DNA from: Maritimibacter sp.
Lineage (GTDB): Bacteria; Pseudomonadota; Alphaproteobacteria; Rhodobacterales; Rhodobacteraceae
Direction: 5' to 3'
Length of the DNA: 64,000 nt
Assembly (NCBI GenBank): GCA_017792445.1
Contig: CP051232.1
Span: forward strand, 1,302,001 to 1,366,000
Notes under the pieces: model-generated
Databases searched by the model: none
What the model was told of the DNA's origin: nothing
What the model saw: the letters and a program-made list of their open reading frames with translations, nothing else
Position numbers and translations under genes: made by a program
Part shown: piece by piece, positions 9,684 through 18,221 of the stretch
How the letters are laid out: every line of letters begins with the position of its first letter
How positions within the stretch are numbered: position 1 is the first letter of the stretch

Positions 9684-9713
9684 CGCAGCGAAATTATTTC
9701 AAAAATTTTCTTG

Positions 9714-9729
9714 CCCAAAGCGGTTTGGG
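9714..9729. promoter_or_regulatory. Inverted repeat upstream of the solute-uptake operon (possible LacI-type operator)
   Basis: CCCAAA-GCGG-TTTGGG, a perfect 6-bp-arm palindrome with a GC centre, flanked by CTTG and CAAG. It lies 31 bp after znuB and 170 bp before the binding-protein gene. The AAAGCG..TTT core resembles LacI-family operators, and such regulators commonly control sugar ABC operons. No regulator gene is in the window, so this is suggestive only. It could also be part of a weak znuB terminator. Confidence 0.35.
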
Positions 9730-9899
9730 CCGCAAGTATGCGCTTGGGAGGAATGGAAGGCATCCCCGGCTCGTACCGTCGACCGTGATCAAGGCCCGTC
9801 AGAGGCCGGTCGCCGCGAGCATTCTTCTGCCCTGTTTCGGGGACGGGATGGCCTCTCGCACAGACGCTACGGACGACGTACCAACAGGGAGACCTTCAT

Positions 9900-11255
9900 A
9901 TGCATTTCGGACATTCTATGCGGGCGCGATATCTGCTCGGCGGCGCAATGGCGCTGGCGCTGACCGCGACCGCCGGGCTTGCCGACATCCGGTTCTGGAC
10001 CACCGAGGAACAGCCCGAACGCCTGGCCAAGCAACAGGAGATGGCGGCCGCCTTCGAGGAAGAAACCGGCATCGCCGTCGAGGTCATTCCGGTGACCGAA
10101 AGCGATCTGGGCACCCGCACAACCGCCGCCTTCGCGGCCGGTGACCTGCCCGACGTGATCTATCATACGCTGCAATACGCCCTGCCGTGGTACGAGGCCG
10201 GCATCCTCGATTCCGACGCCGCGACCGAAGTGATCGAAGCGCTCGGCGAAGACACCTTTGCCCCCGGTGCACTGGGCATGGCGTCGGTCGACGAAGGTTG
10301 GGCCAGCGTCCCGGTCGACGGCTGGACGCAGATGATCATCTACCGCAAGGATCTCTTCGACGAGGCCGGGCTGGAGCCGCCCAGCACCTACGCCAACGTC
10401 CTTGCCGCGCTCGAGGCGCTGCACAACCCGCCCGAGATGTTCGGCTTCGTCGCCGCGACCAAGGTCGACGAGAATTTCATGAGCCAGGTGCTGGAGCACG
10501 TGTTCCTCGCCAACGGCGCGACGCCGGTCGGCCCGGACGGGTTCACCGGCTTCGACGAGGCCAAGACCACCGAGGTTCTGGAGTTCTACAAGGCCATCGC
10601 CGAAGCCTCGCCGCCGGGCGAGCTGTACTGGGACCAGTCGCGCACGCTCTACTTCGCCGGGCAGGCCGCGATGATCATCTGGTCGCCGTTCATCCTCGAC
10701 GAACTCGCGGGCCTGCGTGACAGCGCACCGCCCACGATCACCGACGATCCCACCTCGCCCGAACTGGCGTCGAAGACCGGCATCGTGACCAACTTCGCCG
10801 GCCCCTCGAACCCGGACGGCGCGGCTTGGGCCGACATCCGCTATTTCGGCATCACCGTGGACGCCGACATCGAAGAAGCGATGCAGTTCGTCGAGTATTC
10901 GATGAGCACCGGCTACACCTCGACCCTGTCGATCGCGCCCGAAGGCAAGTTCCCGGTCCGCAACGGCACCGCCGAGAACCCGACCGAGTTCATCGAAGCC
11001 TGGGCGACCCTGCCGATGGGCGTCGACCGCAAGGCGCCGATGGGTGACGTCTATGCGCAAGAGATGATCGACGAGGTCGTCGGCGGTCTCGACGTGGCGC
11101 AACGCTGGGGCGTCGACGACGGTCAACTGGCGCTGGCGTCCAAGATCATCAACTCCGGCGCGATCAACCGGATCGTGCGGCAGTACATCGACGGCGAGAT
11201 CGAAGCCGCCGCCGCTGTCGAGGCGATGAACACCGAACTGTCCGCCATCGAGTAA
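9900..11255 (+). CDS. ABC transporter solute-binding protein (carbohydrate / glycosyl-solute type)
   Basis: 451 residues. A signal peptide ending near TAGLADI leads into a cluster D (MalE-like) binding protein. Family landmarks are IRFWTTEEQPERLAKQQEM at the mature start, FAAGDLPDVIYHTLQ (the usual xxGxxPDV turn), GWASVPVDGWTQMIIYRKDLF, and GKFPVRNGT in the C-lobe. AGGGAG lies 8 bases before ATG 9900; a second in-frame ATG at 9918 is possible. It is the first gene of the operon and is followed by a strong hairpin, as is common after highly expressed binding-protein genes. The neighbouring GH63-type glycosidase suggests a glycosylglycerate or alpha-glucoside ligand (inference). Confidence 0.88.
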   Translation: MHFGHSMRARYLLGGAMALALTATAGLADIRFWTTEEQPERLAKQQEMAAAFEEETGIAVEVIPVTESDLGTRTTAAFAAGDLPDVIYHTLQYALPWYEAGILDSDAATEVIEALGEDTFAPGALGMASVDEGWASVPVDGWTQMIIYRKDLFDEAGLEPPSTYANVLAALEALHNPPEMFGFVAATKVDENFMSQVLEHVFLANGATPVGPDGFTGFDEAKTTEVLEFYKAIAEASPPGELYWDQSRTLYFAGQAAMIIWSPFILDELAGLRDSAPPTITDDPTSPELASKTGIVTNFAGPSNPDGAAWADIRYFGITVDADIEEAMQFVEYSMSTGYTSTLSIAPEGKFPVRNGTAENPTEFIEAWATLPMGVDRKAPMGDVYAQEMIDEVVGGLDVAQRWGVDDGQLALASKIINSGAINRIVRQYIDGEIEAAAAVEAMNTELSAIE

Positions 11256-11330: not shown

Positions 11331-12578
11331 ATGACCTCAGCCACACCACCGACGGGCCGCGGCCCGCTTGCCCGCCGCGAGGCGCGGCTGGCCTGGGGCC
11401 TGCTGCTGCCCACGATCCTCTCGGTCTCGCTGGTGGTGATCCTGCCGCTGCTGTCGATCTTCTGGATCAGCTTCAAACCCATCGGCCTCGCCGACCTGCG
11501 CCCGCCCGCGCCCGTGGTGCGCGAGTCGCTGCGCGGCCGGCCCGAGGCGGCGGGCGACGAAGGCGAGGTGCAGTACCGTCTGCGCAACTCGTCCCAGGAC
11601 AAGCCGATCCTCGGCGTCACCCTGTCGGACACCCTGCCCGAGGGGCTGACCGTCACCGGCGACATCGACCCGCGCTGCACCCTCGACGACCGGGCCCTGT
11701 TCTGCGACTTCGGCGATCTGGAAGGTGGCCAGCGCGAGACGATTGAGATCCCGGTCATCGCCGAGGCCGCCTATTTCGACAGCGGCGCCGATGTCGAGCG
11801 CACCGTGCCCGAGATCACAGGTCGCGCCGACAACATCCTGACCAACTCCGAGTTCACGCTGGACAACTTCGCCCGGATCTTCCGCGGCGACGAGTTCTTC
11901 ACGGTGCTCTGGGCCACGATCTTCTACACGGTGTTCGGCACCGTCGGCGCGCTGCTGGTGGGCCTGTTCGCGGCGATGCTGCTGAACAAGGAATTCAAAG
12001 GGCAGGGCATCCTGCGCGGGCTGTACCTGTTCCCCTACGTGGCCCCCGTGATCGCGGTGGCCTTCACGTGGGTCACGCTGTTCGATCCGTTCTCCGGCTC
12101 GGCCAACGCGCTGTTGGTGCAGATGGGCGTGGTGAACAGCCCGATCAATTTCTTCGGCCAGCGCCCGCTGGCGCTGATCATGGTCACCGTGTTCGAGATC
12201 TGGCGCTATTTCCCGCTGTCCTTCCTGTTCATCCTCGCCCGGATGCAGTCGATCGACCACGACATGTACGAAGCCGCCGACATGGACGGCGCCTCGCCGT
12301 TCCAGCAGTTCTGGTACCTGTCGATGCCGCAGCTTCTGGGCATCCTGTCGGTGCTGTTCCTGCTGCGCTTCATCTGGACCTTCAACAAGTTCGACGACAT
12401 CTTCCTGCTGACCGGCGGCAACGCCGGGACGCGGACGCTGACGGTCAACGTCTACGAACAGGCGTTTGCCGTCTCGAACATCGGCGCCGGCGCCGCGGTC
12501 GCGGTGGTGATCTTCTGCGTGCTGCTGGTCTTCTCGATCTTCTTCCTGAAATACGTAAGCCGCGAGGAGGGCCTGTGA
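11331..12578 (+). CDS. ABC sugar-type permease 1 with a DUF11/Ig-like domain in its first periplasmic loop
   Basis: 415 residues, about 100 more than a usual six-helix MalF-type permease. After TM1 (about 18-46) comes a periplasmic insertion (about 50-175). It holds a beta-rich segment, VQYRLRNSSQDKPILGVTLS then DTLPEGLTVTGD, that looks like a DUF11/Ig-like repeat domain, with two Cys (in RCTLDD and LFCDF) that could form a disulfide. The remaining five helices follow, with the EAA coupling loop EAADMDGASPFQQFWYLSMP near 310-330. The insert sits where MalF has its P2 loop, which touches the binding protein. Possible role: capture or scaffold of the binding protein (inference). Confidence 0.88.
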   Translation: MTSATPPTGRGPLARREARLAWGLLLPTILSVSLVVILPLLSIFWISFKPIGLADLRPPAPVVRESLRGRPEAAGDEGEVQYRLRNSSQDKPILGVTLSDTLPEGLTVTGDIDPRCTLDDRALFCDFGDLEGGQRETIEIPVIAEAAYFDSGADVERTVPEITGRADNILTNSEFTLDNFARIFRGDEFFTVLWATIFYTVFGTVGALLVGLFAAMLLNKEFKGQGILRGLYLFPYVAPVIAVAFTWVTLFDPFSGSANALLVQMGVVNSPINFFGQRPLALIMVTVFEIWRYFPLSFLFILARMQSIDHDMYEAADMDGASPFQQFWYLSMPQLLGILSVLFLLRFIWTFNKFDDIFLLTGGNAGTRTLTVNVYEQAFAVSNIGAGAAVAVVIFCVLLVFSIFFLKYVSREEGL

Positions 12579-12688
12579 TGACCGCTTCGCCGCTTCTTCT
12601 GTCCGGAAATATCCCGGGGGAGCCGCGCGCCAGCGCGGTGGGGGCAGAGCCCCCTGCCCGGCCCATCCATGCGGAGGTGTCCCGATGA
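12578..12688 (+). CDS. Possible 36-residue bridging small ORF between the two permease genes
   Basis: ATG 12578 overlaps the permease 1 stop (TGATG) and the ORF ends in a TGA that overlaps the permease 2 start (ATGA). It therefore fills the intergenic gap exactly and is made largely of a copy of the dispersed palindromic repeat. The predicted peptide (MTASPLLLSGNIPGEP...) resembles nothing I know. It may only pass ribosomes along for translational coupling, or be chance, as GC-rich DNA lacks stops. Permease 2 also has its own GGAGG site. Confidence 0.25.
   Translation: MTASPLLLSGNIPGEPRASAVGAEPPARPIHAEVSR
12591..12655 (-). repeat. Dispersed two-hairpin intergenic repeat, copy A
   Basis: Inverted copy of the element also found at 20257-20320, 20332-20390, 41010-41067 and 44320-44376. 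Read on the minus strand: GGGGGCTCTGCCCCC hairpin, a second hairpin CCGCGC-tggc-GCGCGG, then CTCCCCCGGGATATTTCC and an AGAAGAAG-like end. It is the only copy inside an operon rather than at a transcription-unit boundary. Confidence 0.8.
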
Positions 12689-13902
12689 GCGCCCTGCGTC
12701 ACGGATGGCTGACCGGCCTTGTCATCGGCGTGCTCTGGCTGTTCGTCCTCGCCGTCGCGGTGGCCGTGGCGGTGGCGTTCGGCGCCGGCGCCGCGATCCG
12801 CCCGGCGATCCCCTTCATCGTGGTGCTGGGCGCCGTGACCGGGCTGGCCTGCGTGGCCCTGCGGCTGGCGCCCCCGGTGCTGTGGGCGGGCGTCACGGTC
12901 GTTTTCGCCGCTCTCGGCGCGGCGGAACTGGCTCCGATCGTCGGCACCGACGCGACCACACCGGTGCTTCTGGCTGTCACCAACGGGGTACTGGGCCTTG
13001 CCTTCGGGTGGTCGATGACGCGCATCCTCGGCACCATGTCGACCGGCGCGCTGACCCGGCACGTGTTCGAGGCCGCGGTGATCCGGTTCCTGACCGGCAC
13101 CGGCTATATCGTCTTCACCGCCATCGTCGCGATCCCGTTCTACGTGATGGTGATGACCAGCCTGAAGAACCAGCAGCAGTTGGTGCAGAACCCTCTCGAC
13201 TTCTCGCTGGACCTCTCGAAAGGCTGGGGCCTGTTTTCCAGCTATGTCGAGCTGTTCGGGCAGTTCAACTTCGGCAGCTACCTGTGGACCTCGTTCTACG
13301 TGTCCTGCCTGACCGTCGCGATCACGCTGCTGTTCTCGGTCCCCGGCGCCTATGCCGTCGCGCGTCTGCGTTTCGCGGGGCGGACGGCGTTCTCGCGCTC
13401 GATCCTTCTGATCTACATGGTGCCAATGATCGTTCTGGCGCTGCCGATCTACATCGTCTTCTCGATGACCGGCCTCAGGAACACCATCTTCGGCATCGTC
13501 ATCATCTACCCGGTCACGACCATTCCCGTCGCGCTGTACATGCTTCAGGGCTATTTCCGCGGCCTGCCCGCAGAGGTCGAGGAAGCCGGGCTGATGGACG
13601 GGCTGACCCGGCTCAAGGTGATCTGGAAGATCACCCTGCCCCTGTCGCTGCCCGCGCTGGCCTCGGTCTCGCTCTATGTCTTCATGATCGCGTGGAACGA
13701 GTTCCTGCTGGCCTTCATGCTGCTGGACGATCCCTCCAAGTTCACCCTGACCCGTGGCGTCGCGATGCTGAACTCGTCCGAGATCCCGCGCCAGCACTTG
13801 ATGGCCGGCGCGGTGATCGCGACGGTGCCGATCATGGTGCTGTTCCTCGGGCTCGAGAAGTTCATGACCAAGGGCCTGACCGCCGGGTCGGTGAAAGGAT
13901 GA
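12685..13902 (+). CDS. ABC sugar-type permease 2 with an extra N-terminal membrane domain
   Basis: 405 residues against about 280-300 for a usual MalG-type permease. The first 125 residues add about four hydrophobic helices (around 8-35, 40-58, 64-84 and 92-115). The normal six-helix core then begins near FLTGTGYIVFTAIVAIPFYV. The EAA motif EEAGLMDGLTRLKVIWKITL (near 305-325) shows it couples to the ATPase. A GGAGG site precedes ATG 12685. It forms the heterodimeric channel with permease 1. The N-terminal helices have no clear role; they may match the extra helices known in some AglG-like permeases. Confidence 0.88.
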   Translation: MSALRHGWLTGLVIGVLWLFVLAVAVAVAVAFGAGAAIRPAIPFIVVLGAVTGLACVALRLAPPVLWAGVTVVFAALGAAELAPIVGTDATTPVLLAVTNGVLGLAFGWSMTRILGTMSTGALTRHVFEAAVIRFLTGTGYIVFTAIVAIPFYVMVMTSLKNQQQLVQNPLDFSLDLSKGWGLFSSYVELFGQFNFGSYLWTSFYVSCLTVAITLLFSVPGAYAVARLRFAGRTAFSRSILLIYMVPMIVLALPIYIVFSMTGLRNTIFGIVIIYPVTTIPVALYMLQGYFRGLPAEVEEAGLMDGLTRLKVIWKITLPLSLPALASVSLYVFMIAWNEFLLAFMLLDDPSKFTLTRGVAMLNSSEIPRQHLMAGAVIATVPIMVLFLGLEKFMTKGLTAGSVKG

Positions 13903-13961
13903 CGACCTTGGCCGCAACCGACCGGACACGAAACGCAAAGGACACGCCTGCCAATGGCTGA
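13899..13961 (+). CDS. Possible 20-residue bridging small ORF before the glycosidase gene
   Basis: ATG 13899 overlaps the permease 2 stop (ATGA) and the TGA at 13959-13961 lies just inside the glycosidase start (ATGGCTGA). The glycosidase ATG has only a distant AAGGA, so ribosomes finishing this ORF could reinitiate there. The peptide (MTTLAATDRT...) is unremarkable. Function as a peptide is unlikely; a coupling role is possible. Confidence 0.25.
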   Translation: MTTLAATDRTRNAKDTPANG

Positions 13962-15206
13962 CGCCACCACCTGCGACCGCGAAGCCCGCGCCATCCTCGC
14001 GAAGAACGATCGCGGCGGGTACACCGTGCCGACGGCGGGGCTGTATCCCTACCAGTGGAACTGGGACAGCGTGTTCGCCGCCCTTGGCTTTGCCGAGCAC
14101 GACATGGACCGCGCGTGGAGCGAGATCGAGACTCTGTTCCGCGGCCAGTGGCCAAACGGCATGGTGCCGCACATCCTGTTCCACCAGGTCGATCCCGGCT
14201 ATTTCCCCGGCCCCGACGTGTGGGGCGGCGTCGGACCGATCCCGTCTTCGGGCATCTCGCAACCGCCCATCGCGGGCACCTTCGTGCGCTGGCTCCTGGA
14301 CCGAAACCCCGGCGCCCAGCCCCGCGCCCGCGCGCTGTTCAAGCCGCTGATGGATTGGCACCGCTGGTTCATGACATGGCGCAACGAGGGCGGCGCCATC
14401 GTCGTCACCCATCCGTGGGAAACCGGCCGCGACAACTGCCCCGACTGGGACGGCCCCTTTGCCGCGATCGAACCAGAGGGTGTCGAACAGTACTATCGCC
14501 GCGACACCACCCACGTCGTCGAAGAGGAACGTCCGCGGCGCTACGATTACGACCGCTACCTGTACCTCGTGAAGCTGGGGGCCGAGAGTGGCTGGGACGA
14601 GGCCTATCTGAAGGACACCACGCCCTTCCGCGTGGCCGACCCGACGATGACCTTCACGCTGCTGCGCTCGACCCGCGACCTGAAGGTGCTGGCCGAACGG
14701 TTCGGAGAACCGGTGGACGAACTCGACCGCTGGATCGCCGAGATGGAGGAAGGGTCCGAACGGCTGTGGAACGCCGAGGCCGGGACCTACGACTGTTATG
14801 ATATCCGCGCGGGCAAACACACCGGCGTCGTCTCGAACGCGTCGTTCCTGACATGGTACGCGGGTGTCGGCGGCGACCGGATGCTCGACCAGTTCGACCG
14901 CATCGCCGGGCTGACCAAGTACTACGTCCCGTCCACCGATCCGGCTCATCCGGCTTACGAGCCGAAACGCTATTGGCGCGGGCCGGTCTGGGCGATGATG
15001 AACATGCTGATCGCCACCGGGCTGGGCGAGGCGGGCCACACCGACCGCGCGCAGGCGCTGACCGAGAACACCCGCGCGCTGATCTCGAAGAACGGGTTCG
15101 CGGAATACTTCGACCCGACCAACGGCGCCCCCGCGGGCGGGCGCGACTTTACATGGACGGCCGCCGTCTGGCTGGCTTGGGCCTCTCCCAACACGGGGAA
15201 AACACC

Positions 15207-15219
<13 letters not shown>
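13954..15219 (+). CDS. GH63 / MGH1-like glycosidase (glucosylglycerate or mannosylglycerate hydrolase type)
   Basis: 421 residues, no signal peptide, so it acts in the cytoplasm on imported substrate. (alpha/alpha)6-barrel landmarks: YQWNWDSVFAALGF near 30, QWPNGMVPHILFH near 65, SGISQPPIAG near 98, HPWETGRDNCPDWD near 153, and EYFDPTNG plus FTWTAAVWLAW at the end. In characterised family members the general acid is an Asp in the HPWE-x-G-x-DN motif (here D160) and the general base a Glu in the EYFDP motif (here E384). Both are present. The family includes mannosylglycerate and glucosylglycerate hydrolases; the exact sugar is not decided by sequence. It overlaps the ATPase gene by 13 bp. Confidence 0.85.
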
Positions 15220-16259
<1,040 letters not shown>

Positions 16260-16280: not shown

Positions 16281-16715
16281 ATGAGAACCACCGCCGACCG
16301 TATCCGCCATTCGCTGCTGCTCGAATTCTTCGCGCTGCTGATCATCACGCCGCTTGGCGCGCTGGTGTTCGGCGTGCCGATGTTCGACTTCGGTACGGTT
16401 GCGCTGGTCAGCAGCATGGTCGCAATGCTGTGGAACTACGCGTTCAACATCGGGTTCGACCGGGCCATGTTCCGCGCCACCGGAGGCACGGCGAAATCCC
16501 TTCGCCATCGCGTTCTGCACGCGGTGCTGTTCGAGGCCGGGCTTCTGGCCCTGCTGGTGCCGTTCATCGCGTGGCACTTGGGCGTGACGCTTTGGGTCGC
16601 GCTGGCGATGGACTTGTCGCTGGCCGGGTTCTTCCTTGTCTATACCTTCCTTTACAACATCGCCTACGACGCGGTGTTCCCGATCCCACCCGCGCCCGCA
16701 TCGCCGAAAGCCTGA
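16281..16715 (+). CDS. PACE-family (chlorhexidine-type) efflux transporter
   Basis: 144 residues with four membrane helices in two tandem bacterial transmembrane pair units: first RHSLLLEFFALLIITPLGA with WNYAFNIGFDRAMF, second RHRVLHAVLFEAGLLALLVPF with YTFLYNIAYDAVF. The Glu in helix 1 and Asn in helix 2 conserved in PACE transporters (AceI) are there. GGAG lies just before ATG 16281. Members export biocides and short-chain diamines; physiological substrate here is unknown. Confidence 0.88.
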   Translation: MRTTADRIRHSLLLEFFALLIITPLGALVFGVPMFDFGTVALVSSMVAMLWNYAFNIGFDRAMFRATGGTAKSLRHRVLHAVLFEAGLLALLVPFIAWHLGVTLWVALAMDLSLAGFFLVYTFLYNIAYDAVFPIPPAPASPKA

Positions 16716-16816: not shown

Positions 16817-16847
16817 TGAAGTGTTTTAGCAAGTGATGGAGAGAGAG

Positions 16848-18221
16848 ATGTCCGACAGCACCCCCGCTTCGGAAGGCAAGGGAATGTCACTGACCGTCAA
16901 GGTCATGATCGGGATGGTCGCGGGCCTGATCGTCGGTGTCATCTTCAACGCCATCGGGTCCGATTTCATCGCCACGCATATTGTCGGCGGCCTGTTCGCG
17001 ATGGTCGGCAGCATGTTCGTCAACGCCCTGAAGATGCTGGTCGTGCCGCTGGTGATCTTCTCGCTGATCTGCGGCGTGACCGGGATCGGCGACATCCGGG
17101 TCCTTGGCCGCGTCGGCGGCAAGTCCTTCGGGCTGTACCTGTTCACCACCGCCGTCGCGATCGCCATCGCCATCCTGATGGCGCTGGTCGTGGCGCCGGG
17201 CGACGGGTTCGACATGACCGGCGTCGACACCTCGGGCGTCACCGGGCGCGAGGCGCCGACCGTGTGGGAGGTCTTTGCCGGCATCGTTCCCACCAATCCC
17301 ATCGCCAGCTTCGCAAGCGGCGAGATGCTGCAGATCATCTTCTACGTCATCATCGTCGGCATCGCCGCGCTTATGATGGGCGACCGGTCGAAGCCGTTCA
17401 TCGAAGCCTGTGAATACATGAACGAGCTGATGATGAAGGTCGTGGGCATCGTCATGGCCTTCGCCCCCTACGGCGTGTTCTGCCTGATCGCCAAGACCTT
17501 CACCGAGCAGGGGATCGAGCTGTTCGTGCCGGTACTTGCCTATGTCGGCACGCTGACGGTGGCGCTGTTCTTCCACCTTTTCGTGACGCTGATGATTATG
17601 CTCAAGGTGCTGTCGGGGCTGAACCCCTTCACCTTCATGACCAAGATCCGCCCGGCGCAGATCTTCGCCTTCTCGACCGCCTCGTCGAACGCGACGATCC
17701 CGGTCACCTTCCGTTGCGTGACACAGCGCATCGGGGCGGACAACTCGGTGGCCTCGTTCACCGTGCCGTTCGGCGCGACGATCAACATGGACGGCACCGC
17801 GATCATGCAGGGCGTGGCGACAGTGTTCCTTGCCAATGTCTATGGCATCGACCTTGGCATCGGCGGCTACCTGACCGTGATCGCGATGGCGGTGCTTGCC
17901 TCCATCGGCACGGCGGGCGTGCCGGGCGTTGGCCTTGTCATGCTGACGATGGTGCTGGGTCAGGTCGGCCTGCCGATCGAGGGGATCGCGCTGATCCTCG
18001 GCGTCGACCGCCTGATGGACATGATCCGGACCGCGGTGAACATCACCGGCGACGCCGTCGTCTCGACCATCGTGGCGAAGACCGAGGGCAAGCTGGACAT
18101 GGCGGTGTTCAACGACCCCGACGCGGGCGTGATCACCGACCACGATCTGGACATCGACCCCGAGGCCGAGGCCCGTCTGGCCGACGCGGCGCACCCACCC
18201 CGGAGCGCACCGGCAGAGTGA
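16848..18221 (+). CDS. Dicarboxylate/amino acid:cation symporter (DAACS, GltP/DctA family)
   Basis: 457 residues with the glutamate-transporter fold. Helices run from about 10 on. The re-entrant loop 1 serine-rich motif is AFSTASSNATIPVTF, the NMDGT motif (TINMDGTAIMQG) forms part of the cation and substrate site, and the second re-entrant loop is IGTAGVPGVG. The MDMIRTAVNITGDAV helix near the C-terminus carries the Arg/Asp/Asn that select the substrate carboxylates. I choose ATG 16848 because GGAGAGAG precedes it; ATG 16833 lacks a site. It imports C4-dicarboxylates or acidic amino acids with Na+ or H+. Confidence 0.93.
   Translation: MSDSTPASEGKGMSLTVKVMIGMVAGLIVGVIFNAIGSDFIATHIVGGLFAMVGSMFVNALKMLVVPLVIFSLICGVTGIGDIRVLGRVGGKSFGLYLFTTAVAIAIAILMALVVAPGDGFDMTGVDTSGVTGREAPTVWEVFAGIVPTNPIASFASGEMLQIIFYVIIVGIAALMMGDRSKPFIEACEYMNELMMKVVGIVMAFAPYGVFCLIAKTFTEQGIELFVPVLAYVGTLTVALFFHLFVTLMIMLKVLSGLNPFTFMTKIRPAQIFAFSTASSNATIPVTFRCVTQRIGADNSVASFTVPFGATINMDGTAIMQGVATVFLANVYGIDLGIGGYLTVIAMAVLASIGTAGVPGVGLVMLTMVLGQVGLPIEGIALILGVDRLMDMIRTAVNITGDAVVSTIVAKTEGKLDMAVFNDPDAGVITDHDLDIDPEAEARLADAAHPPRSAPAE

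Follow-up and report, generated by a model that had tools for sequence, protein, structure and literature searches.

The P2 domain of Escherichia coli MalF, a permease subunit of the importer MalFGK2-MalE, is an Ig-like domain folded in the periplasm between the first two core helices. It spans residues 91-271, and in simulations MalF residues 240-249 directly contact MalE, as given in the passages on P2 in PMC3150292. MalF has eight helices, and a large periplasmic loop at the P2 place occurs in MalF of enteric bacteria and of Thermotogales, which group together, according to the part of PMC2246101 that deals with this loop. The closest solved relative of the permease core described below belongs to another system, the mycobacterial trehalose importer SugABC-LpqY (7cad, 8ja7; 7cad_A, E 3.1e-25), in which SugA has 305-307 aa and, in the alignment, runs from TM1 to TM2 without any insertion.

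DUF11 (PF01345) is a domain family that has been renamed CLIPPER, and 9ifr is a solved DUF11 structure. The fold is an Ig-like beta-sandwich of seven to nine strands; isopeptide-bearing CLIPPER domains carry a Lys-Asp-Asn triad, and some DUF11 domains have no isopeptide bond, as described in sections of PMC12617251. Elsewhere these domains are repeated in surface stalks, but in the importer permease of a Maritimibacter genome, and in its orthologs in marine alphaproteobacteria, one such domain occurs singly, within a transporter loop. This insertion is real and conserved. We give a probability of about one in two to the reading that it is a DUF11/CLIPPER-derived docking arm for the binding protein at the P2 place, by analogy with P2 itself.

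A sugar importer operon with an enlarged permease

The window, a stretch of 64,000 nucleotides, corresponds to positions 1302001-1366000 of a genome assembled as a single contig of 4.68 Mb. It carries on its forward strand an operon in which the order is binding protein, permease 1, permease 2, MGH1-like hydrolase (usually) and ATPase. The sugar-type binding protein (9900..11255, 451 aa; Pfam SBP_bac_1, E 2.1e-22) has a signal peptide and no lipobox, both judged by eye, and among solved structures it is closest to sugar-binding proteins (best 7v09, E 9.5e-26). Permease 1 (11331..12578, 415 aa plus stop; BPD_transp_1, E 3e-14) is of the MalF/UgpA type and contains the insertion, and permease 2 (12685..13902, 405 aa; BPD_transp_1, E 6.3e-21 at residues 220-393) is of the MalG type. 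These are followed by the MGH1-like glycoside hydrolase (13954..15219; PF22422, E 1.5e-109) and a MalK/UgpC-type ATPase (15225..16259), which matches Pfam ABC_tran, TOBE_2 and OB_MalK and scores 457 bits against NF008653, for which the cut-off is 432. With two BPD_transp_1 permeases, an EAA motif (E314-A-A-x3-G320) in permease 1, a sugar-type binding protein and a MalK-type ATPase with a TOBE/OB domain in Pfam, the importer is a type I (CUT1-like) sugar importer, a known kind, and its accessory domain has an unexpected origin.

Metal-ABC-importer-like genes, recognised by eye, precede the operon in the window, and no LacI-like regulator lies between (9684-9899). Among 80 loci, the best 80 of 574 relatives, clustering places a LacI-like gene ahead of the operon in 64, and one representative (L056) was confirmed as LacI. 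In at least one locus (L035, 2-766), a GlcNAc 2-epimerase-family gene (PF07221) is upstream. Downstream in the window are a small membrane protein, PACE-type efflux-like by eye (16281-16715), and a putative dicarboxylate-type symporter (16833-18221).

The hydrolase is near a Thermus protein of the 2z07/4wva series (E 4.4e-104), which we take to be a mannosylglycerate hydrolase, and near mycobacterial hydrolases (best E 1.7e-60). Against the glucosylglycerate hydrolase model NF047898 (NCBIfam) it scores 315.7 bits and does not reach the cut-off of 550. Our best guess from sequence is that the importer substrate would be a glycosylglycerate-type glycoside; a literature search on the substrate found nothing on this operon. 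The Agl alpha-glucoside system was also considered as an assignment, prompted by gene order, and was rejected, as no analysis supported it. No MGH1-like hydrolase match lies between permease 2 and the ATPase in L007, L043, L048, L059, L070, L072, L075 and L138, and a replacement hydrolase was not found in the few flanking genes examined of hydrolase-less operons.

In permease 1, a hydropathy window places TM1 at residues 28-46 (11412..11468). BPD_transp_1 covers residues 208-409, and MalF/UgpA-type models align only from about residue 173-177 onward. Because TM1 lies so far ahead of the start of these models, an insertion of about 120 aa can be delimited between TM1 and TM2 at about residues 55-175 (11493..11855), and it is followed by the permease core at residues 176-415 (11856..12575; Pfam and MalF/UgpA-type models), with EAA-x3-G at 314-320. 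The EAA motif is on the cytoplasmic side in MalF/UgpA-type permeases, which would place the insertion in the periplasm. The initial annotation had described such an insertion between TM1 and TM2; it is indeed present in the 415-aa open reading frame, together with all of the named motifs, N86 S87 S88, L98-G110 (LSDTLPEGLTVTG) and the two cysteines C116 and C125.

DUF11/CLIPPER membership and predicted fold

The insertion had also been proposed to be a DUF11/Ig-like domain, and sequence searches agree with this. Whole permease 1 scores 21.9 bits against PF01345 (E 2.3e-4), under the curated cut-off of 24.6, while the insertion alone scores 25.0 bits, over the cut-off. The same family is matched by 62 of 64 orthologous loops at E <= 0.1, with a best value of 3.5e-8. 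In the reciprocal direction, a profile built from 47 loops matched 23 of 398 genomes of the phylum; in 16 of these the loop is present at full length, within frames of 413-493 aa, and the remaining seven gave nothing but weaker matches, which lie in other proteins. Of the 17 weaker rows, nine (from eight genomes) were scanned, and eight are DUF11 above cut-off; the ninth (L111) is DUF7933, with DUF11 below cut-off. The DUF11-like domain of BatD (PF13584) was another family met in the scan of the loop-profile matches; BatD is presumably a membrane-protein setting for such a domain and not a transporter subunit.

DUF11 was expected to occur otherwise in large surface proteins, and a search of the same genome gave eight matches, namely permease 1 and seven in one frame of 2469 aa. 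When the loops are aligned to the seven DUF11 domains of this frame, hhalign returns a probability of 89.3 (E 2.1e-6). The frame is surface-adhesin-like and is located at 3611498-3616099 of the genome, outside the window.

The predicted structure points in the same direction. AlphaFold2 models the loop alone as a beta-sandwich of eight strands (mean pLDDT 90.1, pTM 0.79), a predicted number that falls within the seven to nine of DUF11 and supports the Ig-like fold of the initial annotation. The full-length model of permease 1 is weak (mean pLDDT 63.7), especially in its membrane part, and the loop is its best region, with block means of 81-87 over residues 61-150. Foldseek ranks 9ifr first among PDB chains for the loop model (E 8.5e-5, TM 0.57/0.60), with a cellulose-binding domain narrowly behind (E 9.0e-5), and the VIA-align rows for the model are tied at Z 8.8-10.0, with 9ifr at 9.6; the ranking of 9ifr by itself would prove little. 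Neither the loop profile nor the own-genome DUF11 profile gave a significant match among PDB sequences, so that the link of the loop to 9ifr is one of fold. Taken together, the DUF11 signal is beyond chance, and on the agreement of sequence with predicted fold the insertion is a DUF11 domain.

The cellulose- and chitin-binding domains just behind 9ifr in Foldseek would fit a sandwich that binds glycan or the cell wall, as a decoration that might concentrate substrate near the pore. However, this likeness is one of general fold, with the rows tied in Z, and Pfam gives the loops no match to a carbohydrate-binding family. We consider a glycan-binding role improbable.

Seven residues do not vary across the 64 aligned rows: R57, R83, N86, S88, C116, C125 and G128. 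Comparison of the loops with eight stand-alone DUF11 domains, a set in which 9ifr itself is not included, reveals which features the loops share with the family. The stand-alone domains all have a Lys (8 of 8) that aligns with Glu65 of the loops (Glu in 63 of 64). Its position, together with the triad described for this family in PMC12617251, suggests that this Lys is the isopeptide Lys. The presumed triad Asp is retained as D100 in 63 of 64 loops and the late Asn as N168 in 49 of 64. In this alignment the loops thus do not carry the Lys-Asp-Asn triad of the isopeptide-bearing CLIPPER subset, and because the presumed Lys is replaced by Glu65, an isopeptide bond is not expected in the loop. This is no argument against DUF11 membership, since some DUF11 domains form no such bond, as noted in the sections of PMC12617251 on the bond.

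C116 and C125 (11676..11705), spaced C-x8-C and invariant in 64 of 64 rows, probably form a hairpin disulphide; the same spacing is found again in one of the eight stand-alone domains (L125). R83 is Arg in all 64 loops and R85 in 63, and none of the eight stand-alone domains has Arg at either position. By strand alternation, R83 and R85 should face outward, and with R57 and R68 they make up a candidate contact face.

Distribution and evolution of the insertion

The insertion was read directly in 80 loci (the best 80 of 574 relatives) and in 12 further regions. Among the matches listed, the closest named relative is a Maritimibacter MAG (L001) at 94% identity. By tblastn, all 80 loci have the binding protein and permease 2; the ATPase is matched in 79 (a contig ends in the other) and the hydrolase in 72. 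All five genes are present in nine of the 12 further regions; two others are cut by contig ends and one is without the hydrolase.

Within the class, 10 of 385 genomes carry a match to the loop profile. Within the order, searched with the core only, 91 of 341 genomes match at E <= 1e-45. In the order survey, frame length serves as an indirect sign of the insertion: a place with core identity of 67% or more occurs in 87 genomes, and in 87 of 87 the open frame has at least 412 aa, long enough for the insertion. Eleven other places in the order, at 36-39% core identity, lie in ten frames of 301-360 aa and one of 764 aa. Outside the group, the best relative in the class sample shows 42% core identity and a frame of 298 aa, and the paralogs in the same genome show the insertion in none of the five frames read (of seven). 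Judged by frame length, no loss of the insertion was seen among the 87 close orthologs in the 341 genomes of the order, and its gain would predate the sampled orders, or it spread by transfer.

Five plasmid records (Limimaricola, Ruegeria, Maritalea, Thalassospira and Paroceanicella) cover at least 80% of the query; for one of them, that of Thalassospira, the operon was inspected as well. A further plasmid match, haloarchaeal (H6), appeared to cover part of the loop and was set aside; the annotated gene, of about 300 aa, begins within the match.

The loop evolves fast, with a mean pairwise identity of 53% over 64 rows compared to 86% for the core. In the closest pair, dN/dS is 0.137 for the loop and 0.060 for the core, and both indicate purifying selection. 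Summed over 36 pairs, the values are 0.555 and 0.245, blurred by saturation in GC-rich codons, and for this reason only the closest pair is relied on. The faster change of the loop is what would be expected if the domain had been inserted once and then carried as a passenger, kept without a function of its own. Against this stand an insertion-sized frame in all 87 close orthologs of the order, the seven invariant residues and the low dN/dS of the closest pair, so that a mere passenger seems quite unlikely.

The insertion at the position of MalF P2

MalF residues 263-507 align in sequence with permease 1 residues 179-407, and 9bcr_H 79-510 superposes on residues 34-404 of the low-confidence full-length model (Z 9.2, rmsd 5.7, 248 residues aligned). 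Since P2 occupies MalF 91-271, these alignments put the insertion and P2 at the same place, between the first two core helices, as the initial annotation had it. P2 is the larger of the two, and the eight helices of MalF, as counted in the MalF portion of PMC2246101, compare to six expected in permease 1.

The shared place, and the Ig-like fold of P2, would also suit an insertion that is a diverged true homologue of P2 and not an independent acquisition, yet no sequence relation between them is detected. MalF_P2 (PF14785) matches none of the 64 orthologous loops at E <= 0.1, and DUF11 matches none of three P2 sequences. Aligned to these three (a thin alignment), the loops reach an hhalign probability of 0.2, compared to the 89.3 obtained with the DUF11 domains of the same genome. 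Moreover, of the 150 phylum genomes searched, three have a MalF_P2 match, and all three lie outside the class of this organism. MalF is not among the 50 structural matches listed for the loop model, an absence that excludes nothing. Common descent with P2 is thus very improbable, and the clear homology to P2 that would have spoken against the initial annotation was not detected.

Because the insertion lies at the P2 place, is apparently unrelated to P2, and P2 touches the binding protein, it may have solved the same problem independently. Judging by its place and build, the insertion would extend across the periplasmic entrance of the permease pair. It would then most likely act as a rigid periplasmic arm that touches the operon's binding protein during docking and sugar delivery, like P2 in MalFGK2. 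Contact with the binding protein has been shown for P2, whereas for the insertion it is what we infer. The evidence counted in favor of a docking arm consists of the domain identity, the confidently predicted beta-sandwich with 9ifr as top match, the P2 place, the insertion-sized frames in 87 of 87 orthologs, purifying selection, R83 and R85, and the P2 precedent. Against it are the fast evolution of the loop relative to the core and the fact that SugA, the closest solved relative, works without such an arm.

Co-divergence was analyzed in 80 operons including that of the window, after 12 of 92 were dropped with a gene missing or not full length. The partial r of the loop is 0.207 with the binding protein (permutation p 0.0035), 0.190 with the nucleotide-binding part of the ATPase (p 0.002), 0.106 with the hydrolase (p 0.0045), 0.084 with the regulatory part of the ATPase (p 0.048), 0.041 with the permease 1 core, 0.009 with the permease 2 core and -0.128 with the N-terminal extension of permease 2. 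The signal is not specific, the ATPase nearly equalling the binding protein, and it is therefore not used as support for docking. The pI is 4.2 for the window loop and 4.05 for the binding protein; as both are acidic, there is no simple charge complementarity between them.

Permease 2 also departs from its relatives. Hydropathy reveals an N-terminal hydrophobic extension of about 135 residues (12685..13089), which has no match in Pfam. Permease 2 lengths run from 400 to 409 aa between the 5th and 95th percentiles of 92 reads, with starts picked nearest to that of the window copy, a choice that favors equal lengths; the shortest, down to 198 aa, are at contig ends or breaks. The extension evolves fast (mean distance 1.40 compared to 0.17 for the permease 2 core) while its length is steady. 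In eight sequences hydropathy predicts 1, 2, 3, 3, 3, 4, 4 and 4 helices in it, the single helix being that of the window copy, and since the threshold gives from one to four, it is uncertain how many extra helices there are.

In the three loop-less relatives that were resolved, permease 2 has 272, 284 and 281 aa, so that insertion and extension co-occur. This co-occurrence would be explained if the insertion were structural, packing on the extension or steadying the heterodimer on the periplasmic side with no contact to the binding protein. The negative partial correlation between loop and extension argues against such a role, as does the hydrophobic nature of the extension compared to the soluble loop, and we regard it as rather unlikely.

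For the docking arm, a tentative history can be drawn, which we judge somewhat more doubtful than probable: a CLIPPER adhesin-stalk domain would have been recruited in alphaproteobacteria to the P2 position, lost its isopeptide Lys and become a docking arm for the binding protein, alongside the hydrophobic extension of permease 2, which would give the P2 device two independent origins.

In the titles and abstract openings searched, a coverage outside which most subscription literature falls, no report of a DUF11 domain in an ABC permease loop was found. Database records name the five plasmid homologues solely "sugar ABC transporter permease", and the insertion can serve as a marker for a widespread importer recorded only under that name. 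Were an unrelated Ig-like domain at the P2 place established in a second permease family, one could examine if arms of this kind are a general means of docking binding proteins, and which of their properties matter. Such a family would also show a CLIPPER-type domain, otherwise at home in surface stalks, as part of transport machinery.
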